Origin: Kordiimonadales bacterium
Lineage (GTDB): Bacteria > Pseudomonadota > Alphaproteobacteria > Sphingomonadales > Kordiimonadaceae
DNA length: 64,000 nt
Direction of reading: 5' to 3'
Assembly (NCBI GenBank): GCA_015485385.1
Contig: WFTS01000089.1
Location: forward strand, 1 to 64,000
Shown here: piece by piece, positions 30,530 to 46,418 of the stretch
Layout: every line of letters starts with the position of its first letter
Numbering within the stretch: the stretch's first letter is position 1
Program-made: the position numbers and the translations under genes
The notes under the pieces: generated by a model
Database searches by the model: none
What the model was told of the DNA's origin: nothing
The model's input: the letters and a program-made list of their open reading frames with translations, nothing else

Positions 30530-31663
30530 TTAAATCGCCTGTTCATAAACTCGGTATGTTTTGTAAACCTTGCAGCCGATCTCGTTGAGGATTGAGTTCA
30601 TGCCGTCATTGTCTTCTAATATCCAGCCGAGCTCGCCAAAATAGGCGCCGCGTTCTACGACATTATCTTTGGACACATCGATCATCCACATGGCCATAGC
30701 AGCGCCTAGCGGCTTTTTCTGGAAGCGTTTGCGTACGCCCATCAGAGGGACGCGGCAACGGTCTTCACGACCATTGAACATGCGCCACAATAGTTTGATA
30801 AGCTTAATCGGGCCTAAACTGCCTTCCAAATCACGCAATTTGTGGTTTACATCTGGCACTGTCAGCATGAAGGCAACGGGCTCGCCGTCATATTCGCACA
30901 GGTAAGTGCGGTGCGGCTTTACGATCGGCTTTAGGGCCTTGGCGGCGTGTCTGGTCTCTTTCTCCGTGAAACGCACATAGCCCCAATTTTCGCACCATGC
31001 TTCATTGTAAATATCTAAAATAGTTGCCAATTCTTCATCGAATTTTTTCATGTTGATCGGGCGGATTGATACACGGGCATTCTTTTTCGCCATTCCAACG
31101 ATGCGCTTGGCGCGGTCAGGCATGGGGTTGGTGATATCCAGCTCGTAGGCGTACATGTCTTTGGCTTTCTTGAAGCCTTCCGATTGCAACCAGCCATCAT
31201 ATTCGGGCCTGCCGTGTCCCATCATAATGCAGGGCGGTGTATCAAAGCCGTCGATCAGGGTGCCAACTTCTTCAGCAGAGTTAAACGACCATGGCCCTTG
31301 CATGCGTTTCATGCCGCGCTCCTTGAGCCACGCTTTAGCGGTTTTTAAAAGTGCGGCCCCTGTTTCGGCATCACAGACTTCAAAAAAGCCAAAATGACCA
31401 AGGTTCGGCCCCCATTTTTCCTGTGCCAGTGCATCAATTTGTGCGCTGATACGTCCGACAAGCTTACCACCGCGCTCAGCGACCCACATGGCAACTTCGG
31501 CATGTTCAAAATAAGGGTTTTTATCAGGGTGTAGGACATCCATACGCTCAAGCAGTAATGGCTGAACCCAGTGTGGATCGTTTTTATAAACTTCGCGTGT
31601 GACATTAACAAACCGTTTGATGTCGGCCTTGCCATTCACTTGACTGATTTTCAATTCGCCCAC
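30530..31663 (-). CDS. GNAT-fold acyltransferase-like protein; candidate bacterial ceramide synthase by context
   Basis: YKNDPHWVQPLLLERMDVLHPDKNPYFEHAEVAMWVAERGGKLVGRISAQID GNAT-like fold; position at the edge of the ceramide locus. Confidence 0.65.
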   Translation of the reverse strand: MGELKISQVNGKADIKRFVNVTREVYKNDPHWVQPLLLERMDVLHPDKNPYFEHAEVAMWVAERGGKLVGRISAQIDALAQEKWGPNLGHFGFFEVCDAETGAALLKTAKAWLKERGMKRMQGPWSFNSAEEVGTLIDGFDTPPCIMMGHGRPEYDGWLQSEGFKKAKDMYAYELDITNPMPDRAKRIVGMAKKNARVSIRPINMKKFDEELATILDIYNEAWCENWGYVRFTEKETRHAAKALKPIVKPHRTYLCEYDGEPVAFMLTVPDVNHKLRDLEGSLGPIKLIKLLWRMFNGREDRCRVPLMGVRKRFQKKPLGAAMAMWMIDVSKDNVVERGAYFGELGWILEDNDGMNSILNEIGCKVYKTYRVYEQAI

Positions 31664-31752
31664 GCGGGTTACTCCTTTACGGTCAATACTGATTATGTGG
31701 ATAGCCGACCCAGCAGAATTTGCAATGTTTTTGCAGTGCTTCTTTTGGAAAA

Positions 31753-33303
31753 CTATTTTCGGAGGGCAACGCCCAGTGGTCCAAGAGCAGCGGCATCCTC
31801 TTTAGATAAGCCGTAGCGAACCAATAAGGCCAGCATGAGGAATAAGGCACTAAGGGCAATGATAATGCCCATTGGGGTCGGCCAGTGTGTGCTGGCGGGG
31901 ATCAAAGCCGTTATGCCTGCGGTAAGCACCAGCGCGGTTACAAGAGGTCGCACCAAATGCCGATCATAAGGCGATAGCTTATAGAAAAACATAGATTGCA
32001 GCAGCGAAATCAAAGCTGTGACATTCAGTCCAATAGCCGCGGCAACTGCAGCGCCTGTTACGCTGTAAAGCGGAATCAGGTAAAAGCCGAGCGCTACAAG
32101 GACGGCAAAGCCGATAGCGCTATTGATGGCGGGCAAATATTTATGGCCTAAGCTTTCAATGATTGCAGTCGCTGGGCCGGTTGCGGCCTCAAAAATGCGT
32201 CCGATACATAAGATGGCAATTGCGGCATTGGCTGCGGCAAATTCTGGTTTCATGGCGGCGAGTATATCATGGCGTGCAAGAATAACAGCAGCCCCAAACG
32301 GAAGGGCAATGCACAAGGAAAGCCGCGTGGCAAAAGCATACATTTCATGTAAGGCGCGGTGATCACCAAAACCATCGCGTTCTGCGGCAAGCGGGGCTAT
32401 GACATATTCAAATGTAAGGCGAACGGCTTGTAGTGCGCTGGCGATCTTACGCGCGACAGCATAAAACCCGCTTGCAGCCGCCCCTGCGGCACCGGGCAAC
32501 ATAAAATTAAGGAACATCACAGGGAATTCGCTAAAGAGCATTTTACTGATATTGGCTGGCATCACAGAAACACCATAATGCAGCAATTCACGCGCGATAG
32601 GCCCACCGAGCGGCGCACGCCAGACGTTTGAAATATTGTAAAACTGGGATACCAGCCGCAGTGCAAGTGCCGCCGATAAGATCACGCTAATCAAGTGCGC
32701 AACAAACAGGCCGTATGTCAGCATGCCAGCCGCAGCAAAAAGAGTAGCCGCGACCAAGCGCAGGCCTTGCTCGTAAAAGATACGCACTTTGATTTCAGGG
32801 CCAAAGGTGCGGCGAGCCCGAATTGCGGCGGTGCCAACTTCTACCATCGTCCAGAAGGGCAGAACCCAAACGTAAATTTGAATGACGGTGACGAGGCGTT
32901 CTGCGTCTGCCTCTGCAGCGTGGATCAGAGGGGCGAGCCACGGTGCGGCAATGGTGCCAGCAAGGGCAAATGCACAGCCCACTAGAAAACTGAGCTTTAA
33001 AGCAAACCCGGTGATTTTGTCTGCATCCTCTGCTGAGGCACGCGGGACATAACGCTGCATTGCGGTGGTCATGGCCACATCAGTGAGGGCCGTAGAAACC
33101 TTTATATAAGCCCATAGTGCGGCAAATAACCCAAATGTAGCCGTACCGTACATCCAGGTGAAGGCGATCATTGAGGCGGCTTCAATCAAGGCGCCTAAAC
33201 GACCAATGAAAGCGAAGCCCGCACCGCCTGCAACGCGGGCGCGGTGGCCATCTGGTTCGTGAATATCATCAGAGGGCGGTTGTTTGGGGTCGGGCTTAGT
33301 CAT
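31753..33303 (-). CDS. Polysaccharide/lipid flippase (MATE/Wzx-like, multi-TM)
   Basis: About 516 aa with many TM segments, typical Wzx-like organisation (GGAGFAFIGRLGALIEAASMIAFTWMYGTATFGLFAALWAYI). Confidence 0.8.
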   Translation of the reverse strand: MTKPDPKQPPSDDIHEPDGHRARVAGGAGFAFIGRLGALIEAASMIAFTWMYGTATFGLFAALWAYIKVSTALTDVAMTTAMQRYVPRASAEDADKITGFALKLSFLVGCAFALAGTIAAPWLAPLIHAAEADAERLVTVIQIYVWVLPFWTMVEVGTAAIRARRTFGPEIKVRIFYEQGLRLVAATLFAAAGMLTYGLFVAHLISVILSAALALRLVSQFYNISNVWRAPLGGPIARELLHYGVSVMPANISKMLFSEFPVMFLNFMLPGAAGAAASGFYAVARKIASALQAVRLTFEYVIAPLAAERDGFGDHRALHEMYAFATRLSLCIALPFGAAVILARHDILAAMKPEFAAANAAIAILCIGRIFEAATGPATAIIESLGHKYLPAINSAIGFAVLVALGFYLIPLYSVTGAAVAAAIGLNVTALISLLQSMFFYKLSPYDRHLVRPLVTALVLTAGITALIPASTHWPTPMGIIIALSALFLMLALLVRYGLSKEDAAALGPLGVALRK

Positions 33304-34441
33304 TTTTGCTAGATCTTGCTGGCTTGCCTTCTTCGGTATTGAAAATCACCGCATATCCTAACAATAGGAACAAAAAGAAGGGCGACCAAGCAGCCAAAAA
33401 GGGCGGGGCTGCACCAAATTCTCCCATTGCCAGCATGAAGTTATCAGCAACGAAAAAGCTAAATCCTAGCGCCATGCCAATGAAAACACGCAACACCAAA
33501 CTGCCTGCCCGGTGGACGCCAAAGGCGGCAACGGCGGCCAAGATAGGCATTAAAAGTGTGGCTGCAGGCCCGGCAATTTTCTGGAGGAAACTTGCCATTA
33601 GGCGCTGGGTTGGGATGCCCTCTTTTTCAAGCTTTTGCATCACGCGCCAAAGTTCAATCATTGAGACATGATTGGGCTTTACTGAAAGTGCTGTAAAGCG
33701 TTCAGGCCGGGTCGGTATATCCCAGTCTTGCACGGCCTTGATAGTAAGCTCGTGCGTTCGGGTATCAAAGCGCCTAGCCTCATGAAGTGTCCAGCGCCCA
33801 TTTTGATACCAAGCAAAATCGGCTTTGATCATGGCTGTCAGACGCTTTTTGTCGTCGCGCTCATAAATAGAGACTTTATCAAGAACAATACGTTTGCCAG
33901 ACCGGCTGACAGATTCAACCAATATGACCAGATTGTCTTCTTTGATCCAGATACGCCCAGCCAAGGCAGTGTTGGGCGGCAAATCAACCGCATAGTCATT
34001 TTCTTGCCAATACTCCAAGGCTGCATTGCCTTTAACAACAATGGTTTCGTTAAAGATAAAATGGCCGGTCGCAATCAAAAAAGAAGCAAGACCAAGAGGA
34101 AGTAGAATCCGGTGCGCCGATAATCCGGCGGCCTTCATGATCACAACTTCGCTATGCTGATTAAGTGTCGCGAGCGTTAGCAAGGACGCAAGAAGCGCAG
34201 CAAACGGCGTAAATTGTGAAATCAGCTGAGGCGCGCGCATGCTGACATAGGATAAGATAGACACCCATGAGGCCCCTTCTGGCTTCATAATGTCATCGGA
34301 TGCTCCTAGCAGATCAAGGAACTGCAGTACGGCTGTTAGCCCGATGAGGATGCCTGCAAAGCGGCTGAGGTGCATCTGAGCCAAATAACGCGCCAATGTG
34401 CCAGAGGGTATAATCATGCGGCGAAGGGAACGTAAAATCAT
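33296..34441 (-). CDS. lptG: LptG-like lipid/LPS export permease (YjgP/YjgQ family)
   Basis: TLARYLAQMHLSRFAGILIGLTAVLQFLDLL...EVVIMKAAGLSAHRIL. Confidence 0.9.
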   Translation of the reverse strand: MILRSLRRMIIPSGTLARYLAQMHLSRFAGILIGLTAVLQFLDLLGASDDIMKPEGASWVSILSYVSMRAPQLISQFTPFAALLASLLTLATLNQHSEVVIMKAAGLSAHRILLPLGLASFLIATGHFIFNETIVVKGNAALEYWQENDYAVDLPPNTALAGRIWIKEDNLVILVESVSRSGKRIVLDKVSIYERDDKKRLTAMIKADFAWYQNGRWTLHEARRFDTRTHELTIKAVQDWDIPTRPERFTALSVKPNHVSMIELWRVMQKLEKEGIPTQRLMASFLQKIAGPAATLLMPILAAVAAFGVHRAGSLVLRVFIGMALGFSFFVADNFMLAMGEFGAAPPFLAAWSPFFLFLLLGYAVIFNTEEGKPARSSKND

Positions 34442-35631
34442 CAGTCAGTTACTCCGATGATACGCTTGATCAACCGCCGCCCGGGTGCGCTAACGGCAGA
34501 CCAGAAGCTGTTGATCAAGGACAGTGGTTCACCGCCTGCTTTGAAGGCTGCGATGCGGAAAAAGAAAAAGCTTAGGCCAGCGAAACCCGCATAAAGTAAC
34601 CAGATACTTAGATAGGGCGAGGCCCCGTTTTGAACGGCGGTTTCCATCCCTTCCATAAATTCATTATAGACAATCAAGAGCGAGAGCCCAATTGCGATCC
34701 CTGAACCACGTCCCGTTCGTTTGTTGGTTATCCCCATGGCGACCGCGAGATACGGTAGGATGAAGAAACTAAGGCTATGCATGATGCGCCAATGAAAATT
34801 TCCGTTTAGCGCGGCTCTTAGTTTGCTTGAGTTTTCAGGATTGTTACGCTCTCGGTAGAGCTCAGGTAGGGTCATTTCACGTTCTTCGCCGCCGCGTGAA
34901 CGGAAATCTTCGCGCGCAGGAAGCTTGATCTTCATGTCTTGACGCTCAAAGTTGAGAACCCTTGGCTTGTCTTGCTTTTCGTTCAAGTCAACAATGACGC
35001 CGTTATATAGCCTCAATAAAATAGTTTGCTCGTCTTCGGTCGCAAAAAAACCTCCGCGTTCTGCGGTAACGGCAATGCTGCCGTTTTTGTCTTTGCGTTC
35101 CATGAAAATACCGCGCAGTTCTGCCCCTTTTTGATGAGATTCGTCCACTAGAATAGTGATATCATCACCAAATTCGACAAATTCACCAACGCGGATACTG
35201 GCCCCAAGTGCGCCGCTTCGTAAATCAAAGACCAACGTCCGGTAGGTATAAATACTGTGTGGCTGAACCCACCCTACAAGCAGAATATTGATTGTGGCCA
35301 GCAACAGAGCAAGCGCCATCAAGGGGCGCATCATGCGCGGCAGGCCGATCCCGGCGGTACACATTGCGTCATATTCACTGGACAAGGAAAGTTTACGAAA
35401 GGCAAGTAATACACCCAGCAAAAGTCCTATGGGTAAGGCGAGCCCCATATAGTTGGGCACCATATTTGCCAGCATTTTAAAAACGACGTTGGCTGGCCCA
35501 CCTTGATTGACCACAAAGTCGAACAGTCGCAGCATTTTCTCAAGAATAAGCAACAGCGCGGCCAGCCCTAATGTGGTCAAAAGAGGCATGGTAACTTGTT
35601 TTAAAATATAGCGATCTATTCGATTAAACAT
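34441..35631 (-). CDS. lptF: LptF-like lipid/LPS export permease (YjgP/YjgQ family)
   Basis: MFNRIDRYILKQVTMPLLTTLGLAALLLILEKMLRLFDFVV...SSEYDAMCTAGIG. Confidence 0.9.
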   Translation of the reverse strand: MFNRIDRYILKQVTMPLLTTLGLAALLLILEKMLRLFDFVVNQGGPANVVFKMLANMVPNYMGLALPIGLLLGVLLAFRKLSLSSEYDAMCTAGIGLPRMMRPLMALALLLATINILLVGWVQPHSIYTYRTLVFDLRSGALGASIRVGEFVEFGDDITILVDESHQKGAELRGIFMERKDKNGSIAVTAERGGFFATEDEQTILLRLYNGVIVDLNEKQDKPRVLNFERQDMKIKLPAREDFRSRGGEEREMTLPELYRERNNPENSSKLRAALNGNFHWRIMHSLSFFILPYLAVAMGITNKRTGRGSGIAIGLSLLIVYNEFMEGMETAVQNGASPYLSIWLLYAGFAGLSFFFFRIAAFKAGGEPLSLINSFWSAVSAPGRRLIKRIIGVTD

Positions 35632-35807
35632 AGGTTGGCGCTACACCGGTTTCAGGAAACTTTCAAGCTTGATTTAATGGACTGTGCAGTAGAGGACAGC
35701 AGTTTGACACATAAATCTTGGCAAAAGCATGTTGTGTTCTGCCTTAATTGAGGCCATATGGAACATAATTTTGCCACCATCCAACAGCATTTGCTGTAAT
35801 AAGGCGG

Positions 35808-36386
35808 ATGAGCTTGGAGAGTTTTATGTTTCGACCCGTTGGTTTAGTTTCAAGTGCAGCGGTGGCTTCGACCCTAGCGTTTGCTTTGTGGTCTGACCCG
35901 GCCACGGCGGATCCTTTGCTGAACACAGAAGTGCCAACAGCGGATATTTACGATGTATGCGAGGCGGGCCCAGGTGGGGCAGCACTTTATATTCATGTGG
36001 AAAATATTCGCTCTGTTGAAGGAAATTTACGGGCGCAGGCCTATAGCGACAACCCAGATGAATTCCTTGAGAAAGGAAAATGGCTTGTGCGCGTTGATGT
36101 GCCGGTCAAACTGGTGGGCGAGCAGAGTGTTTGTGTGCAGATGCCAGCTCCGGGGGCATATGCCTTTGTTGTGATGCACGACAGAAATGCAAACGGTAAG
36201 GCGGATTTCTTCTCTGAAGGGTTCGGCTTTACCAATAACCCCACATTAGGGCTCGGTGCGCCGGACGCCGAAGATGTTACTTTTGATGTTCCCAAGGGGG
36301 TCAGCAAAACCAAGGTTCGGCTTAAATATATTCTTGGCGATGATGCTGAAAAGAAGAAAAAGCGTCGGAAATTGAAGCGCCGTTAA
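35808..36386 (+). CDS. DUF2141 domain-containing secreted protein
   Basis: GNLRAQAYSDNPDEFLEKGKW...APGAYAFVVMHDRNANGKADFFSEGFGFTNNP. Confidence 0.85.
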   Translation: MSLESFMFRPVGLVSSAAVASTLAFALWSDPATADPLLNTEVPTADIYDVCEAGPGGAALYIHVENIRSVEGNLRAQAYSDNPDEFLEKGKWLVRVDVPVKLVGEQSVCVQMPAPGAYAFVVMHDRNANGKADFFSEGFGFTNNPTLGLGAPDAEDVTFDVPKGVSKTKVRLKYILGDDAEKKKKRRKLKRR

Positions 36387-36517
36387 AGAGAGAGCGGCTT
36401 TTGGTTGCCTCTATTTGATGCCCTAGAGAGGGCGATCATTGAAGATGTCGCGCGAAACCATTATGTAGGCGCGTAAGACAAGCAGAAATGACTGCTATAA
36501 ACTTGTAACTTTCTTAT

Positions 36518-37543
36518 GTGCGGAGACCTTCTGGCATGCAGCTGGAAAAGACAGATTTAAAAACTGGGGCAGCGGTACCTTTGGTGGCGATTATTTCTAA
36601 TCCCCTAAGTACGACAAATGCGAACAGTATGGATGCCGTCCGTAAAGTGGTTAATCAAAGCGCAAATGTTGTTCATTTCGAACTGAACGGAATTGAAACA
36701 ATCGGTGAGGCGCTTGAACTGTTTAGTCGTGCACAGCCTGCAATGGTTATCATTAACGGTGGTGATGGAACTATCGGTGCGGTTTTGGCATCTATTCTTT
36801 ATGATAATCCGTTTTCTGTTGTGCCGCCTATTGCATTTCTACCCGGTGGAAAAACCAATATGACAGCTTCCGATTTGGGGTCAAAAGGCAAGCCGATCAA
36901 GGTGTTAAAGAAACTTCTCAAGCTAGCTAGGGAAGGGAGAGTTAGCGAAAGTTTAAAGACACGCCACCTAATTGAGATGGATATCGGGGACGGAAAAGGC
37001 CCGCGTGTTGGCTTCTTTTTCGGAACGGCAGGCGTTGTGAAAGCCATTTTTTGGTGCCGCGAAAATGCTTATTCTATGGGATTTCCCAATAGTGTTGCGC
37101 ACCTGATTTCAATTTCAAAACTGGTTTTGGCAGCACTTGGTCTGGGTAAATCAAAGCACTTGTTGGTGTCAGATCCGATGTCTTTGAACATTCCCGGGCA
37201 TGGCCGTATGGCGGGACAATATTCAGCGGTTGTAACAACAACGCTGGACCGTTTGATACTCGGTATGAAGCCTTATAGCCGCACCTCTGAGCAAACCAAT
37301 GCCGGAGGTCTGCGCTTTGCTGCGGTTGAGGCAGGTAGCCGCAAGTTTATTCGTGCGATTTGGGCTATGGTTATTGGCCGCTTTGGAAAGAAAACTATCC
37401 ATGGGTCACATGTGCGTACCGGAAATGAGGTTCGGATTGAAGGGACAGACCCCGTGACGTTAGACGGTGAGATTTACCACCCTATCGCGGGGACCCCTGT
37501 TGTGTTGCGCGGAGACAAAGCGTTGTCTTTTGTCTCGCTTTAG
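36518..37543 (+). CDS. Diacylglycerol/sphingosine-kinase-like protein; candidate ceramide kinase by context
   Basis: AIISNPLSTTNANSM...MVIINGGDGTIGAVLASI...FLPGGKTNMTASDLG. Confidence 0.8.
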   Translation: MRRPSGMQLEKTDLKTGAAVPLVAIISNPLSTTNANSMDAVRKVVNQSANVVHFELNGIETIGEALELFSRAQPAMVIINGGDGTIGAVLASILYDNPFSVVPPIAFLPGGKTNMTASDLGSKGKPIKVLKKLLKLAREGRVSESLKTRHLIEMDIGDGKGPRVGFFFGTAGVVKAIFWCRENAYSMGFPNSVAHLISISKLVLAALGLGKSKHLLVSDPMSLNIPGHGRMAGQYSAVVTTTLDRLILGMKPYSRTSEQTNAGGLRFAAVEAGSRKFIRAIWAMVIGRFGKKTIHGSHVRTGNEVRIEGTDPVTLDGEIYHPIAGTPVVLRGDKALSFVSL

Positions 37544-37551
37544 GGGGTGAT

Positions 37552-38493
37552 ATGCACTCAGAGCTTGATCAAAAATTGGGGGCCTTTATCCGCAGTGAAT
37601 GGGACCGGGATGTCCCTAGTGAGGTAACGGCAGCTGCCAGTGAGATCGCCGCACACTACGGTGACAGTGTGATGGGCGTGCTTTTTTATGGGTCCTGTCT
37701 GCGCACTGGTGAAATTGTTGATAAAATCCTCGATTTTTATGTGATCGTAGAGACATATCAAAGCGCCTATAAAGGAGCTCTATTGGCAATCGCCAATAAA
37801 ATTTTACCGCCGAATGTTTTTTACCATGAAATGGATGTGAATGGCGTCACCGTCCGGTCTAAATATGCGGTTCTTTCTGTTGATGATTTAGCGTTTCGAA
37901 CCAGTCGAAAGTGCCTCAATGTTTCCGTTTGGGCTCGCTTTTGCCAACCGTGCATGTTGCTACTGCCGCGCGATGATCTAGCTTTTGCAGCCATTCACAG
38001 TTCAGTTGTACAAGCCGTGAAAACAATGCTTTTAAACTTGCTGGACCTAAAGCCATTTGCCACCAACAGTCGGGATCTTTGGGTTGAAGCGTTTGGGCAA
38101 ACTTATGCAGCCGAACTGCGCTCTGAGCGCGGTGGTAAAGGGCTTGAAATTTATCTTTTAGATCAAGAACGCTACGATCAATTAACTCCGATTGCTTTGG
38201 CTGCGATGGGGGTGTCAAAAGCGGTTGAACAACAGCACCATCAGCCATCAAGGGTAAGCAGTTGGAAGCCAAAATTATATTGGTGGGCGCGGAGAGTGAA
38301 CGGAAAAATTGTTAGTTTTCTGAGGCTTATAAAGGCAACGACCACGTTTGATGGCGGCATTGATTATATCGCCTGGAAAATAAGACGGCATTCAGGCGTT
38401 GAGGTGGACGTCACCAATTGGATGAGAAAATGGCCCGTGATCGCTGGTATCACACTGTTCTGGAAGCTCCGGAAAAGAGGCGCATTTAAATAG
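37552..38493 (+). CDS. Nucleotidyltransferase-like protein resembling Tam41-type phosphatidate cytidylyltransferases
   Basis: GVLFYGSCLRTGEIVDKILDFYVIVETYQSAY (GS...LDF NTase signature), then NVFYHEMDVNGVTVRSKYAVLSVDDL. Confidence 0.6.
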   Translation: MHSELDQKLGAFIRSEWDRDVPSEVTAAASEIAAHYGDSVMGVLFYGSCLRTGEIVDKILDFYVIVETYQSAYKGALLAIANKILPPNVFYHEMDVNGVTVRSKYAVLSVDDLAFRTSRKCLNVSVWARFCQPCMLLLPRDDLAFAAIHSSVVQAVKTMLLNLLDLKPFATNSRDLWVEAFGQTYAAELRSERGGKGLEIYLLDQERYDQLTPIALAAMGVSKAVEQQHHQPSRVSSWKPKLYWWARRVNGKIVSFLRLIKATTTFDGGIDYIAWKIRRHSGVEVDVTNWMRKWPVIAGITLFWKLRKRGAFK

Positions 38494-38525
38494 CGCACCA
38501 ATTCTCTCTCTAAATCTTAAATAAA

Positions 38526-39728
38526 TTAGGGGTTTAAAGTCAGCCCTACTTTTTCAGCAGTCGTGATAAAGCGCTTGATGATCTCGTTAATCTGATCACT
38601 GGTATGCTGGGCGCAAACGCTGACCCGCATCAGAAACATACCCGCAGGGGTAGCAGGCGGCGCAGCCATGTTGACATAGACACCTTCCATCAACAGCTGT
38701 TCCCAAAATTTTGTTCCCATCATTGGATCGGGTAAATGCACAGCGATGATCGGGCTTTCAGCCGTTTCAGTGCAAAGATTGAAACCAGCTTTTTTTAAGC
38801 CTGCATGTAAACTACGGGCATTTTCCCACAGATGGGCACGGCGGTTCCCACTTCGGCTTATGGCTTTAATCGCAGCGGTGGCCGAAGCAACAACACTTGG
38901 GGGTAGGCTGGCCGTGAAAATATAAGGGCGGCTAACATACCGTAGTACATCAAATTTAGGATGATTTGAAACGGCAAAGCCTCCGACGGTTCCAACCGAC
39001 TTTGAAAAAGTGCCAACAAAGAAATCAACCAGATGCTCAACATCAAGCTCTTCAGCGATGCCCCGTCCTTTTTCTCCGCAAAATCCCATTGAGTGTGCTT
39101 CGTCTACTAGTGTCATGCAGCCGTATTTTTTGCCGACTTCAAGCAGTTCTTTCAAAGGGGCAGCATCACCGAGCATGGAATACATGCCTTCAACAACCAA
39201 AAGCTTATTGGCCCCTTCAGGGATGCGTTTGAGGCGCTTTTCCATATGAGCAACGTCATTATGCTTGAAACGAACAATCGTCGCGTTGCTCATGGTGCAG
39301 CCGTCATAAATAGATGCATGGCTGTCGGCGTCGATGATAATATAATCATCCTTGCCGCCAAGCGCTGAAATAAGCCCCAAATTCGCTTGATAGCCTGTGG
39401 AAAAGACCATGCAGTGGTCCATACCGTAAAAGTCGGCAATGGTCGCCTCTAGCGCTTTGTGGCCTCCATATGTGCCGTTCAGTACGCGTGACCCAGTGGT
39501 TCCGGTTCCGAATTTATCAAGCGCATCTTTTGCAGCCTTGATCGCCTCTTGATTAAAGGTCATGCCCATATAATTGTTGGTGCCAGCAAGAATAGTGTGC
39601 CGACCGCCAATCATGGCTTCAGTTTCAGAAATGATTTCGTCCATCACAACTGTAAAAGGATCAGCCTTTGTAAAGGGTAACGAATCGCGCAGCGCCGTTG
39701 TCGCATCAAATTTATCTAGTAAATCCAT
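38526..39728 (-). CDS. spt: Alpha-oxoamine synthase, likely serine palmitoyltransferase
   Basis: NNYMGMTFNQEAIKAAKDALDKFGTGTTGSRVLNGTYGGHKALE, DEAHSMG, GTFSKSVGTVGGF PLP lysine; next to a dedicated ACP. Confidence 0.85.
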   Translation of the reverse strand: MDLLDKFDATTALRDSLPFTKADPFTVVMDEIISETEAMIGGRHTILAGTNNYMGMTFNQEAIKAAKDALDKFGTGTTGSRVLNGTYGGHKALEATIADFYGMDHCMVFSTGYQANLGLISALGGKDDYIIIDADSHASIYDGCTMSNATIVRFKHNDVAHMEKRLKRIPEGANKLLVVEGMYSMLGDAAPLKELLEVGKKYGCMTLVDEAHSMGFCGEKGRGIAEELDVEHLVDFFVGTFSKSVGTVGGFAVSNHPKFDVLRYVSRPYIFTASLPPSVVASATAAIKAISRSGNRRAHLWENARSLHAGLKKAGFNLCTETAESPIIAVHLPDPMMGTKFWEQLLMEGVYVNMAAPPATPAGMFLMRVSVCAQHTSDQINEIIKRFITTAEKVGLTLNP

Positions 39729-39769
39729 GGTGTTATCAGCCCTAAAAGAAAGAGTGCCCTGTAAGAATG

Positions 39770-40015
39770 TTATTCTGAGGCTAAGATTTTTTCAACAGCA
39801 TCAACAACCTGCTGGATGGTTTCCATGTCTGGCAAAAGATTGAGCGGCAGCAGAATGTCAAACTCGTCCTCAATATCGGCGACTAAATCCATGACTGTTA
39901 GGCTATCAAGTTCAAGATCAACCGCGAAGGTTGTTTCAGGTCCCAACGCAATGTTCTTTTTGTTCAAAGGAGTGATGAGCGCGCAAATGGTCTCAAATGT
40001 CTGGGCGTTCGCCAT
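39770..40015 (-). CDS. Acyl carrier protein
   Basis: ELDSLTVMDLVADIEDEFDILLPLNLLPDMETIQQVVDAVEKIL with a DSL phosphopantetheine site. Confidence 0.9.
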   Translation of the reverse strand: MANAQTFETICALITPLNKKNIALGPETTFAVDLELDSLTVMDLVADIEDEFDILLPLNLLPDMETIQQVVDAVEKILASE

Positions 40016-40086
40016 AATGTCTGCCTACCTACTATCGTGTCATAGAATGAATGTTGTTATCTGACCTTATACCGAGATGTTCGCTA

Positions 40087-41058
40087 TCATAATAGCCCGT
40101 TTTTTCGGTACCAGTCCGTTGTATCCTTTAATCCAGCAATAAGATCAAATTGTGGCGACCAATTTGGTAGGTTTGGGCGTCGCCTTAGCCTGACTGTCCA
40201 GTCACTGTGACAAAGATAGCGCGCTGTTGATAGTGTTAGCATAGCAGGGCGATTGATTGCGCGGGCAACCATGCCATTGATGGCTCCGATTGTCCCGATG
40301 GCCCAAAAGGGCAGTGAAAAAGTTTTTACCGTTTTGTTTTTGCGCCCGAGCATGGCTGCCGCTACATCTTCTATCGTATAGCCGCCGGCTTTACCGTCAT
40401 CAATCTCGAGAATTTGGGAGGCATGTTTATTTTCCAGAAGGGCGGTGAGAGCACCTGCAAGGTCTTGGGCATGGATCATGGAAAATCTGTTTTTGGTGCT
40501 GCCGGGGGCAGGCAAAATTCCAAATTTACTGGCTTTTAAGAGCTTGAGGATTTCTTTGTCGCCGGGACCGTAAATGGCAGGAGGCCGGACAACTGTCCAA
40601 TCAAAGGACCATTTGCGTGCAGTTAACAGCAGCTCGGATGCTGCTTTGCTAGCACCGTAATGAGACAAAAGAGGTTCGCGTGCAGCAAGGCTGGAAATAT
40701 GAAGCACATGCTGGAGATTAGCGTTGGACGCTGCCTTGAAGACATTTTTGGTTGCCGCGACATTAACATCAAAAAAGCCATCACGATTAACGGATTTCGT
40801 TAATCCTGCGATATTGACTAAGGTATCCGCATCCGCACACAACCGTACGAGGCTATCCATATCAGTTAAGGAGCCTTCAATCCATTTGACATTGTTGCGC
40901 TCGGTTTGTGGGCGGCGGGTTAAGGCTTGAACTTTATGACCTGCCGCAAGCAGGCTTTCAATCACATGATTGCCAAGAAATCCGGTGCCTCCGGTCAGTG
41001 CGATACATTGACGAGGTGATGTATTGTTGGATTTTTTTGACATGTTTTTAGCTGGCAA
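40087..41058 (-). CDS. NAD-dependent epimerase/dehydratase (ceramide reductase-like by context)
   Basis: ALTGGTGFLGNHVIESLLAAGHKVQALTR; HYGASKAASE. Confidence 0.8.
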   Translation of the reverse strand: MPAKNMSKKSNNTSPRQCIALTGGTGFLGNHVIESLLAAGHKVQALTRRPQTERNNVKWIEGSLTDMDSLVRLCADADTLVNIAGLTKSVNRDGFFDVNVAATKNVFKAASNANLQHVLHISSLAAREPLLSHYGASKAASELLLTARKWSFDWTVVRPPAIYGPGDKEILKLLKASKFGILPAPGSTKNRFSMIHAQDLAGALTALLENKHASQILEIDDGKAGGYTIEDVAAAMLGRKNKTVKTFSLPFWAIGTIGAINGMVARAINRPAMLTLSTARYLCHSDWTVRLRRRPNLPNWSPQFDLIAGLKDTTDWYRKNGLL

Positions 41059-42778
41059 GCGCCTGTAGGCTTCCAGACAGATATTGGCTTCGGGCTTTGG
41101 TGCGGCTTAATTTGCCTGATGATGTGCGCGGCAATGCACGCGGTGATACCAAAACAATTAAACAGCCGACGCCTGTGGCCGTTTGCACCTGTTTGCGAAG
41201 GTCTTCGACAAGTTTGGCGCGTAGGGATGCCTCTGATGTGCGGCACTGAACCAGCAACATAGGGACTTCTTCAGAATTCTCACCGGGGACAGAAATAGCG
41301 GCAACATCCCCTGTTTTAACACCGTCGAGTTGTTCCGCAGCCCATTCAATATCTTGCGGCCAATGGTTTTTCCCATTGACGATTATAATGTCCTTCGCGC
41401 GTCCAACGATATAAATATCGCCGTTCTTCAAATATCCCATGTCGCCTGTGTCAAGCCAGCCATCATCACTAAGAACGGCCTGCGTTGTCTCTGGATCATT
41501 AAAATATTCCCGCATAACAGATACGCCGCGCAAGAAGATGCGGCCAACGCTTCTATCAGCTAAAACGGTATCGTCTTCGTCGCGGATTTCAATATCATAT
41601 TCAGGCAGGGGCGTGCCGCAATTGACAACCTCGCGCATTCGGCCCTCTTTAGCGCCAGCCACAAGCAAGTGTCTGTCTCCTGTCAGCGAGGCTTCTTCCA
41701 CCAAGTCGATTTCGATGCCTTTCCCAACAGATGTAAAACTAACGCCTAAGGTACATTCAGCCATGCCGTAACTCGGAAGAAATGTCTTTTCCGAGAAACC
41801 GATACATTCAAAGGTTTCCGTGAACATGCGCAGGACATCAGGGCGGATCATTTCGGCACCAATTCCAGCAACGCGCAGGCTTGACAGGTCAAGGCCTTCC
41901 ATGGCTGTGCCGCGCATGGCCGCACGGCGCGCACATATATCATAGCCAAACGTGGGGCTGAACGTCAGTGTCGCTTTGGAGCCGCTAACGACCCTAAGCC
42001 AACTTAATGGGCGCCGGGCAAATTCTTCGGTTGGGATGAAGTCTACGGAAACTTGACACGCCAGCATGGTCAACAGTGTGCCAACAAGGCCCATATCATG
42101 ATAAAACGGCAGCCAGGAAACGGCACGGTCTTCATCAATAAGCCGCACGCCATGATATCCCATACCGTGTGTGTTGGCCATCAAGGAACGGTGCGTTACG
42201 GCTACGCCGTGCGGAAAACGGGTGCTGCCAGACGAATACTGTAAATAAGCAAGATCATCTGTTGATGGAAGCCTGTGCTCTCCGTCAACATCCGCGGCCA
42301 TATAATCTTCCATAGAGCCAGTGAAGATTGGGTTCATGCCAACAGTTGCTTCTGTGATGATTTCATCCATGAAGCTAGGTGCCATAATGCCACCAGCATC
42401 ACAGCTTTCCATTTGCATGCGTAATTGAGAGACATATCCCTCTTTGCCACCAAACGATGTTGGCAAGGGCAGGGGTACAGGCAGAACGCCAGCAAACTGA
42501 CAGCCAACAAAAAAGCTTACGAAATTTGCACTGGTTTCGGCAATAAGGGCGATCCGGTCGCCCTTTTTGAAGCCAAGCCCGACTATTTTGCGTGCGACAG
42601 CTTTGGCGCGCTTGTTGATCTCGGCCCATGTAAGCGAGTCTACAAGATCGCCTTTTGCATTGAAGAAGTTAGGACCTCGTGTGCCCTTTGCGGCATACTC
42701 GATCGCTTCAACAAGTGTATCAAAATCCGAATACCGCCGAGGCAGTGTTGGATCAAGTGTAGGTGTCGCTACAATCAT
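41048..42778 (-). CDS. Fatty acyl-AMP ligase / acyl-CoA synthetase
   Basis: LAYLQYSSGSTRFPHGVAVTHRSL, DDGWLDTGDMGYLKNGDIYIVGRAKDIIIVNGKNHWPQDIE. Confidence 0.9.
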   Translation of the reverse strand: MIVATPTLDPTLPRRYSDFDTLVEAIEYAAKGTRGPNFFNAKGDLVDSLTWAEINKRAKAVARKIVGLGFKKGDRIALIAETSANFVSFFVGCQFAGVLPVPLPLPTSFGGKEGYVSQLRMQMESCDAGGIMAPSFMDEIITEATVGMNPIFTGSMEDYMAADVDGEHRLPSTDDLAYLQYSSGSTRFPHGVAVTHRSLMANTHGMGYHGVRLIDEDRAVSWLPFYHDMGLVGTLLTMLACQVSVDFIPTEEFARRPLSWLRVVSGSKATLTFSPTFGYDICARRAAMRGTAMEGLDLSSLRVAGIGAEMIRPDVLRMFTETFECIGFSEKTFLPSYGMAECTLGVSFTSVGKGIEIDLVEEASLTGDRHLLVAGAKEGRMREVVNCGTPLPEYDIEIRDEDDTVLADRSVGRIFLRGVSVMREYFNDPETTQAVLSDDGWLDTGDMGYLKNGDIYIVGRAKDIIIVNGKNHWPQDIEWAAEQLDGVKTGDVAAISVPGENSEEVPMLLVQCRTSEASLRAKLVEDLRKQVQTATGVGCLIVLVSPRALPRTSSGKLSRTKARSQYLSGSLQALAS

Positions 42779-44265: not shown

Positions 44266-44838
44266 GTGACAAACGGTCGAAAAGATACGGCAAAGAAGAC
44301 TAAGCCTGTCAGCAAAGCGTATCTGGAGCGTGCTGCGCTGCATTATCTTGGGCGGTTCAATAGTTCTCATGCCAATTTAATGCGGGTCTTAGAGCGAAAA
44401 GTGCGGCGCCGAAATGAAGACAATGCCCCGCCGTCCCCTGAGCAACTTGGCTGGATCACTCTGGTGGCTGATCAATGCGTTGCGTACGGCTATGTGGATG
44501 ATGCGCTATATGCTCGCCAGCGATTTGAAAGCTTGCTTAGGAAGGGCAAGCCTCTGCGGGTTATTAAACAAGACCTTCACTATAAGGGTGTGCCAGACGC
44601 TATTGCAGAGGCTGTGATTGCCGAGGCAACGCGTGACCCGGATATGGACCCTGACCTTAAAGCCGCCGCCGCTTATGTTCGCCGCCGTCGTTTCGGTGCA
44701 TTCCGCAGGGCAGACAAAACGGACGAGCGCAAGATAGAAAAAGAAAAATCAGCCATGATGCGTGCAGGATTTTCTTATCAGATGGTGAAAAACATCATGG
44801 CCTCCAGCGAGGATGAACTTCTTAATTTGTTAAGTTAA
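44266..44838 (+). CDS. recX: Regulatory protein RecX, GTG start immediately after the upstream stop
   Basis: YLERAALHYLGRFNSSHANLMRVLERKVRRR...YGYVDDALYARQRFESLLRKGKPLRVIKQDLHYKGV. Confidence 0.85.
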   Translation: MTNGRKDTAKKTKPVSKAYLERAALHYLGRFNSSHANLMRVLERKVRRRNEDNAPPSPEQLGWITLVADQCVAYGYVDDALYARQRFESLLRKGKPLRVIKQDLHYKGVPDAIAEAVIAEATRDPDMDPDLKAAAAYVRRRRFGAFRRADKTDERKIEKEKSAMMRAGFSYQMVKNIMASSEDELLNLLS

Positions 44839-45460
44839 CACCAAACTGTGTCAACGCCGCAGGAGTGTCTAAATCAATAAAAATACCAGGATCCTCTACA
44901 GGAACATCACAGACAAGATGCGCTTGACTTTGGATCAAAGACCGCCCGCCTATGTCGCCCGCTATATTTGCAAGATTTTTAAACTGACTACGCCGCCACA
45001 AAACGGGGTTCCCGGGCTTTCCATGATTGGTGGGGGTGAATATAGATGGTTTTGAGAATTTGCCGCTTGCTTTGATTAAGGCTCTGTATGTGTTTGCACG
45101 GATAAACGGCATATCCCCAAGGCAAATAAGACAGCTGTCAGCCTCTAACGGTAAAGCATGAACACCAGCAGCAAGGCTAGAGCCCATGCCGCTTGCGAAA
45201 TCAGGGTTATGGACGAGACGGACCTGTTGATTTTTTAGCGCTGCGGCAATCGCATCTGATCGGGCACCAGTGACCACGATAATATGTTGAATGCCCGCAG
45301 CCTTCAAGCCAAGAACGCTATGCTCGATCATGGGCTTCCCATCTAGCAACGCCAGCAATTTCGGCTCAGGCCCAAACCGTGAGGATGTCCCCGCAGCCAG
45401 CAAAACCGCATGAGTTAAGGTTTCAACACCCGGTGCCTCATTTTTTTTATGCTGCATCAA
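44822..45460 (-). CDS. MobA-like NTP transferase (molybdenum cofactor cytidylyl/guanylyltransferase)
   Basis: VLLAAGTSSRFGPEPKLLALLDGKPMIEHSV...LICLGDMPFI. Confidence 0.9.
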   Translation of the reverse strand: MMQHKKNEAPGVETLTHAVLLAAGTSSRFGPEPKLLALLDGKPMIEHSVLGLKAAGIQHIIVVTGARSDAIAAALKNQQVRLVHNPDFASGMGSSLAAGVHALPLEADSCLICLGDMPFIRANTYRALIKASGKFSKPSIFTPTNHGKPGNPVLWRRSQFKNLANIAGDIGGRSLIQSQAHLVCDVPVEDPGIFIDLDTPAALTQFGVNLTN

Positions 45461-46418
45461 GCCCTCGCCGTATAGCTGTGATTTCTGCCATGATGGAAAC
45501 GGCTATTTCTGCAGGAGATTTGGCCCCAATATTTAAGCCAATAGGGCCGTGGATACGCTTTAATGTTTCAGCATTTATACCGCGCTCAGACAGCCGAGAC
45601 AGGCGTGCAGCATGAGTTTTCCTGCTGCCAAGAGATCCAATGTAAAAGGCTGGACTTGCTAATCCACACAACAGGGCTTCATCGTCGATTTTAGGATCAT
45701 GGGTCAGCGTGACAAGGGCGCTTGCGTGAACAAGTGGGTGCTTTTTAAAAAACGTATCGGGCCAGTCTTGAATGATGTCAGCCCCATTGAAGGCGCGGGC
45801 ATCTATAAACAGCCCTCGTGGGTCAATCAGGGTAATGTCAAAGCCGCAACTAGCAGCAAAAGGCACAAGGGCTTGAGCGATATGGACGGCCCCAACGATA
45901 CATAAAATGGGTTTAGGGTTGAGCATAAGCGTCAGAGATTGCTCTGTTTGTTTGAGAGATACAGCTTGTTTAAGAGACACGGGCGTGTTTTCACAATGAG
46001 ACTTCGCTGTGAAGGCTGGAGGCTGCCCTGTTTTTGAGAGGGTCAATAAACCTGCTGCCCTGTTTTCGACTGTGGCCAGAGCTTGCTGGATGGTTGCCGC
46101 ATCATTGGTTTGCATTGAAAATAACTGGATTTCAATCGTGCCGCCACACGCAAGCCCGACTTGCCAAGCGTCTTCACTAGCCACTGTGAACGTTAATAGT
46201 TTGGTGTCAGCACTGCCCATCAAGCGCTCTGCCTCAGCAATCACTGCCCCCTCAACGCATCCGCCAGAGACCGAACCCTCGAAATGTCCGGTGTCTTGAA
46301 TGATCATCAAGCTACCGGCAGGCCGAGGGGCAGACCCCCATGTTTGCGTAACCACAGCAAGCACTGCCGCATGTCCGGTGGCTAGCCATGTATGGAGATG
46401 TGTGAGTTCTTTTTGCAT
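45447..46418 (-). CDS. XdhC family protein
   Basis: VVTQTWGSAPRPAGSLMII...GSVSGGCVEGAVIAEAE...YIGSLGSRKTHAARLSRL. Confidence 0.9.
   Translation of the reverse strand: MQKELTHLHTWLATGHAAVLAVVTQTWGSAPRPAGSLMIIQDTGHFEGSVSGGCVEGAVIAEAERLMGSADTKLLTFTVASEDAWQVGLACGGTIEIQLFSMQTNDAATIQQALATVENRAAGLLTLSKTGQPPAFTAKSHCENTPVSLKQAVSLKQTEQSLTLMLNPKPILCIVGAVHIAQALVPFAASCGFDITLIDPRGLFIDARAFNGADIIQDWPDTFFKKHPLVHASALVTLTHDPKIDDEALLCGLASPAFYIGSLGSRKTHAARLSRLSERGINAETLKRIHGPIGLNIGAKSPAEIAVSIMAEITAIRRGLDAA

Follow-up and report, generated by a model that had tools for sequence, protein, structure and literature searches.

A probable ceramide-phosphate locus with its own LptF/LptG permease in an alphaproteobacterial order without lipid A genes

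How bacteria deliver sphingolipids to their outer membrane has yet to be settled, and the matter is raised by a locus at positions 30530-42778 of a 64,000-nucleotide stretch of DNA (here called the window; contig WFTS01000089.1 of assembly GCA_015485385.1). The host (genome G000) is a marine Kordiimonas-type alphaproteobacterium with a 2.97-Mb, 93% complete assembly. The locus joins genes for ceramide synthesis to lptF and lptG, homologues of genes for lipopolysaccharide (LPS) export in Escherichia coli, and we consider it likely that it serves ceramide-phosphate synthesis and that its own Lpt permease would export sphingolipid in an LPS-less lineage. An initial annotation had read the interval as a ceramide and anionic sphingolipid biosynthesis locus of the kind described in Caulobacter; the genes it named were all found where it placed them or close by, but it overlooked lptF, lptG, and a MOP flippase gene within the same interval. 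These three genes (31753-35631) are the most informative part of the locus.

The lineage lacks the genes for lipid A yet keeps the machinery for its export. Across 61 genomes sampled from the order, neither LpxC nor LpxB scored above cutoff in a single one, whereas both were detected in Caulobacter and E. coli, the positive controls. The same genomes hold LptD (60/61), LptFG (55/61), LptC (49/61), and CerS, the candidate ceramide synthase (60/61); the Lpt bridge is thus retained without lipid A genes, and since the lineage has no lipid A pathway, its Lpt machine would have no LPS to carry. Absence of LPS has long been known in Sphingomonas, as in the LPS-lacking S. capsulata (cited in PMC10331486). 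Within the host genome, a whole-genome search with the LptF_LptG family matched only the two window genes, and an LptC-LptA-LptB operon lies on contig C117. Elsewhere in the order, Eilatimonas (G059; locus L141, G059:C8) has two sphingolipid-type LptFG pairs, and lone extra LptF-like genes occur in several members (L139, L143, L144, L153, L156, and L157).

The permease genes are tied to ceramide synthesis both by position and by occurrence. Of the genomes in the order, 52 carry CerS and LptFG on one contig, and in each of them the two are separated by 52-2977 bp; three further genomes have both, but on separate contigs. In a class-wide sample of 192 Alphaproteobacteria genomes, window-type LptF (a score above 160 bits) was found in 27 of the 30 CerS-positive genomes versus none of the 162 CerS-negative ones (Fisher p=6.8e-30, kinship ignored). 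Outside the order there are 27 CerS-positive genomes: 13 have LpxC, 11 of them with two LptFG pairs, and the 14 without LpxC carry one pair (13 genomes) or none (one genome). One pair is also the rule where LpxC is present and CerS absent (9/10). Because genomes with both LpxC and CerS mostly have two pairs and single-cargo genomes mostly one, the number of pairs appears to follow the number of cargo lipids.

A tree of concatenated LptF and LptG sequences (70 pairs, the very divergent extra pair G077b being excluded here and below) divides into two clades (SH-aLRT 100). In the first are all LPS-only genomes together with one pair from each double genome; in the second are all LPS-less genomes, including that of the window, and the remaining pair from each double genome. 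When LptF and LptG were treated separately and E. coli was added, the split was the same, with no misplaced rows (SH-aLRT 99 and 92), E. coli falling on the LPS side, and the window LptFG does not group with the pairs of LPS-only genomes or of E. coli. The sides of the pairs in double genomes were first assigned from the concatenated tree, so independent confirmation comes from the LPS-only genomes, from E. coli, and from the CerS-near pairs; the CerS-near pairs of double genomes (G139, G164, G195, G204, G228, and G231) are all in the sphingolipid clade. As the two-clade tree places them together, the window pair is orthologous to the CerS-linked second pairs, and the LPS-type pair is absent, as are LpxC and LpxB.

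Certain residues also differ between the two types. LptG positions 40 and 41 contact the 4'-phosphate and inner core of LPS in cryo-EM structures (PMC6744409); they are Arg/Lys in LPS-type proteins and mostly Asp/Glu in sphingolipid-type proteins (D49 and D50 in the window). Position 29 of LptF is Glu or Asp in 55 of 55 sphingolipid-type rows, and LPS-type rows have no acidic class there. These charge changes are suggestive and would fit an altered cargo. LptG K34 was rejected as a cargo marker, as Asp occurs there in both alphaproteobacterial types.

The gene downstream of lptG encodes a membrane protein of 516 amino acids whose AlphaFold (AF2) model (pLDDT 90) has MurJ as its best Foldseek match (E=6.7e-8), with WzxE at 9.2e-8; by this model it is a member of the MOP superfamily. 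Its position makes it a candidate sphingolipid flippase.

The remaining genes (Table 1) form a conserved arrangement. A ceramide operon on the minus strand reads, from the right, fatty acyl-AMP ligase, CerR-like reductase, acyl carrier protein (ACP), and serine palmitoyltransferase (SPT). Convergent with spt on the plus strand are the kinase and nucleotidyltransferase-like genes, with a DUF2141 gene upstream of both, and divergent from the latter is a second minus-strand operon made up of lptF, lptG, the flippase gene, and a gene for a 377-amino-acid GNAT-fold protein. About 30 independently sequenced loci of Kordiimonas, Eilatimonas, and Iodidimonas type share this gene order (aas-cerR-acp-spt / nt-kin-duf2141 / lptF-lptG-flippase-GNAT), their proteins being about 40-87% identical, so the arrangement is not due to chance; the nearest relative of the SPT is that of Kordiimonas laminariae (87% identity). 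The initial annotation had placed the GNAT gene further out, but it is a core gene, and its position beside lptG matches that of the Caulobacter ceramide synthase. With it, all five ceramide genes that had been claimed (aasR, cerR, acpR, spt, and cerS) have counterparts in the locus by profile, fold, and synteny, cerS by its GNAT fold and synteny.

Two observations concern the ceramide genes themselves. By eye, the CerR-like protein (40087-41058) has no hydrophobic stretch ahead of its Rossmann motif; Caulobacter CerR is reported to be periplasmic (PMC11087976). The gap between the flippase gene and cerS, which is empty in the window (31664-31752), is an exchangeable slot among relatives: it holds a fatty acid hydroxylase (PF04116) in L021-L023, L027, L029, L031, L033, L034, and L037 (L037:17912-18697) and a desaturase-like gene in L006-L008, L012-L014, L016, and L017 (L012:18223-19215), and may set the acyl-chain tailoring of the ceramide.

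Table 1. Genes of the locus, with window coordinates and the evidence for each assignment
Feature	Position	Strand	Evidence
AasR-like fatty acyl-AMP/ACP ligase, predicted to load the dedicated ACP	41048-42778	-	NCBIfam NF006624, 790 bits (cutoff 600); synteny
CerR-like NAD-dependent epimerase/SDR reductase	40087-41058	-	Pfam Epimerase, 3Beta_HSD; between aasR and acpR as in Caulobacter
AcpR-like acyl carrier protein	39770-40015	-	PF00550, E=3.5e-10
Serine palmitoyltransferase (SPT)	38526-39728	-	NF047599, 600.6 bits (cutoff 500)
CpgC-like protein of Tam41-like nucleotidyltransferase fold; candidate CTP:ceramide-1-phosphate cytidylyltransferase	37552-38493	+	AF2 model and Foldseek; YGS...LD motif
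CpgB-like lipid kinase; candidate ceramide kinase	36518-37543	+	PF00781, E=1.3e-13
DUF2141 protein	35808-36386	+	PF09912, E=1.5e-21; present in most syntenic loci
LptF, sphingolipid-associated type (LptF2)	34441-35631	-	TIGR04407, 244 bits (cutoff 230); tree clade
LptG, sphingolipid-associated type (LptG2)	33296-34441	-	TIGR04408, 287 bits (cutoff 240); tree clade
MOP-superfamily flippase (MurJ/WzxE-like fold); candidate sphingolipid flippase	31753-33303	-	AF2 and Foldseek; weak Pfam MatE
CerS-like GNAT-fold N-acyltransferase; candidate bacterial ceramide synthase	30530-31663	-	PF00583; synteny

Two genes would act on the ceramide headgroup. The gene first described as DAGK/ceramide-kinase-like is borne out as a cpgB candidate by its Pfam domain and a GGDGT motif, the GDGT of which is conserved when the protein is aligned to the kinases from two further sphingolipid loci (22% identity); no sequence relatives of the kinase were found in the PDB. 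The product of the nucleotidyltransferase-like gene matched nothing in Pfam, even at E=5, and its placement comes from its fold. Its AlphaFold model, built from 33 homologues (pLDDT 88), retrieved Tam41 CDP-diacylglycerol synthases at Foldseek ranks 1-5 (best E=1.8e-7); a TM score of about 0.5 and 12-15% identity indicate a common fold family, not a close structure. In the YGS...LD motif of the window protein, Y46 and D61 are invariant, and G47 and S48 are conserved at at least 90%. CC_1161 (CpgC) of Caulobacter has a CDP-diacylglycerol-synthase-type domain (PMC11324152), and because the Tam41 fold fits that domain, the model suggests that the window protein activates ceramide-1-phosphate with CTP. 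The nucleotidyltransferase-like gene of the initial annotation is therefore present, but as a CpgC-like gene and not as the CDP-glycerate-forming cpgD. Emcibacter-type loci (L036, L038-L045, and L047) have kinase, LptFG, and CerS genes contiguous and no Tam41-like gene, flippase gene, or DUF2141 gene, so their sphingolipid may bear another headgroup or be moved by another flippase.

Together these genes suggest the following route. AasR would load AcpR, SPT would form 3-ketosphinganine, CerS would N-acylate it, and CerR would carry out the reduction. The kinase would then yield ceramide-1-phosphate, which the Tam41-like protein would probably activate with CTP, and the MOP flippase would probably carry the lipid across the inner membrane. 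LptF and LptG, with LptB, LptC, and LptA encoded elsewhere in the genome and LptD as found in congeners, would probably extract the finished sphingolipid and deliver it to the outer membrane. What the kinase, the flippase, and the Tam41-like protein act on is inferred, as is the cargo of LptFG.

Alternatives to this route can be raised at each of its stages. Were the AOS-family enzyme a BioF, KBL, or ALAS, the locus would not be for sphingolipids at all; these enzymes share a fold, and the window protein does score 325.7 bits as KBL, 324.1 as BioF, and 253.4 as ALAS. Its score on the beta-proteobacterial SPT equivalog (NF047599) is far above these and exceeds the cutoff, its top PDB relatives are proteobacterial SPTs (544 bits; KBL 233 bits), and two other AOS-family genes of the genome score as KBL (605 bits) and ALAS (595 bits) on their own profiles. 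The gene is moreover surrounded by those for a dedicated ACP and an acyl-AMP/ACP ligase, both adjoining spt, and for CerR and CerS. We reject the BioF/KBL/ALAS identity, which had been named as the finding that would overturn the initial annotation, as barely credible; the gene is on its profile scores an spt, predicted to condense serine with acyl-ACP. At the headgroup stage, the host might make full ceramide diphosphoglycerate (CPG2), with cpgA, cpgD, CC_1153, and CC_1158 at other genomic sites, as in Sphingomonas wittichii, whose sphingolipid genes are spread over six regions (PMC11324152). Look-alikes of cpgA (CDP-alcohol transferase), CC_1158 (metallophosphoesterase), HIT, CC_1153, and cpgD were taken from other genomes of the class as queries; since open reading frame calls in the 20-kb neighbourhoods had picked antisense frames in GC-rich genomes, only a few clusters were used, most of them Pfam-confirmed and the CpgD-like one supported by its sequence motif. 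None of the queries matched in the window or the Kordiimonas loci, the rest of the genome not having been searched, and Zymomonas, also without CC_1159, is predicted to make only CPG, the ceramide phosphoglycerate (PMC11324152). We regard the CPG2 explanation as unlikely: because cpgA, cpgD, CC_1153, and CC_1158 are not in the locus, ceramide phosphate or CPG is the likelier product. The cpg set of the initial annotation thus stands in its CPG half (cpgB and cpgC counterparts), whereas the other four genes are not in the locus.

At the export stage, LptF and LptG could be ordinary LPS exporters that lie in a sphingolipid locus incidentally. Both pass their NCBIfam equivalog cutoffs, and LptA, LptC, and LptD also occur in the order; however, the absence of LpxC and LpxB throughout the order sample and the separation of the window-type clade from all LPS-type pairs disfavour LPS as the cargo, and an occurrence that tracks CerS and not LpxC, with unbroken CerS linkage, adds to them, so that we hold this explanation to be highly improbable. 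A modest chance goes to the pair exporting another amphiphile (a glycosphingolipid, or a capsule-linked or other glycolipid) in place of the phosphorylated ceramide of the locus. Sphingomonads are known for glycosphingolipids, and the pair is order-wide, occurring even in the Emcibacter-type loci, so the headgroup of the cargo probably varies; yet CerS is its constant neighbour, suggesting that what is recognised is the ceramide anchor, and glycosphingolipids are themselves sphingolipids.

Several points weigh against sphingolipid export by the window pair. No LptFG match was found in G046 or in five genomes that belong to a single family (G009, G022, G033, G038, and G043); all of these are CerS-positive except G043, which has no CerS match either. 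LptD had no match in the 93% complete host assembly; it is present in 7 of 7 sampled congeners and is probably missing through assembly incompleteness. In the class sample, whose Fisher counts ignore phylogeny, G087 and G123 are CerS-positive with LPS-type LptFG only, and G114, a single contig of 5.4 Mb, is CerS-positive without LpxC or LptFG. E. coli tolerates LptG K40E/K41E (PMC5548808), which means that the cargo is not necessarily set by this charge change. The case for export in this organism is built on genes, and CerS, the kinase, and the Tam41-like protein were assigned by fold, synteny, and family and not by direct comparison with the Caulobacter sequences.

The Caulobacter locus is the closest known system. 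It runs from CC_1168 to CC_1152 as lptC2, CC_1167, flippase (CC_1166), aasR, cerR, acpR, spt, cpgC (CC_1161), cpgB (CC_1160), cpgA (CC_1159), CC_1158, CC_1157, lptF2 and lptG2 (CC_1156 and CC_1155), cerS (CC_1154), CC_1153, and cpgD (CC_1152) (PMC11324152); our comparison used the gene descriptions in that paper and genomes of the class with the full cluster. The synteny that had been expected with the ccna_01210-01226 region holds for aasR-cerR-acpR-spt, the ceramide kinase, cpgC, the lptF2-lptG2-cerS order, and the flippase, all within one region, and fails for cpgA, CC_1158, HIT, CC_1153, and cpgD. The window locus also differs in having the flippase gene between lptG and cerS and in adding DUF2141, which the initial annotation had counted in the Caulobacter set but which has zero occurrences in PMC11324152. 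Whereas Caulobacter keeps LPS and a second Lpt set, the window LptFG is the sole pair in a genome without LpxC and LpxB. Olea-Ozuna et al. 2024 (PMC11324152) proposed LptC2/F2/G2 and the flippase as sphingolipid transporters in Caulobacter but did not test them, and neither that paper nor PMC11087976 demonstrates sphingolipid transport to the outer membrane by a member of the LptF2/G2 type.

Other systems resemble the locus in part. The E. coli LPS exporter LptB2FG-C-A-D is matched in its LPS equivalog profiles and in the existence of LptB, LptC, LptA, and LptD homologues; the window pair is set apart from it by its clade, the lack of a lipid A pathway, the acidic residues at LptG 40/41, and the CerS linkage. 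According to PMC10353723, Borrelia burgdorferi likewise keeps an Lpt-type bridge as an LPS-less diderm, although it is a spirochaete. Tam41, the closest solved fold to the 37552-38493 product, acts on phosphatidic acid, whereas the predicted substrate of the window protein is ceramide-1-phosphate. Beside the sphingolipid locus, in the window as in most Kordiimonas relatives, are XdhC-like and MobA-like NTP transferase genes (44822-46418, ends overlapping), probably molybdenum-cofactor genes unrelated to the sphingolipid finding.

The biosynthetic locus is a further example of a type already described; this analysis contributes the pattern of genes across the order, in which lpx is lost and Lpt kept, and the linkage to CerS. 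Our literature search, which mostly did not extend to subscription papers and preprints, found no report of order-wide lpx loss with CerS-linked LptFG retained, or of two clades with one pair per cargo, and we claim no priority. On balance we favour a general view in which LptF/LptG of the Alphaproteobacteria is a cargo-specific adaptor with an LPS clade and a sphingolipid clade, and in which several lineages, the whole Kordiimonas order among them, no longer have lipid A or the LPS-type pair and would use the complete Lpt bridge to export sphingolipids, building an outer membrane free of LPS. A single LptFG clade for each cargo lipid, with LPS-less lineages holding only the sphingolipid clade, turns the Caulobacter proposal into a strong and directly testable prediction; if it is true, the "LPS export" annotation of LptF, LptG, and LptD would be wrong for a whole bacterial order.

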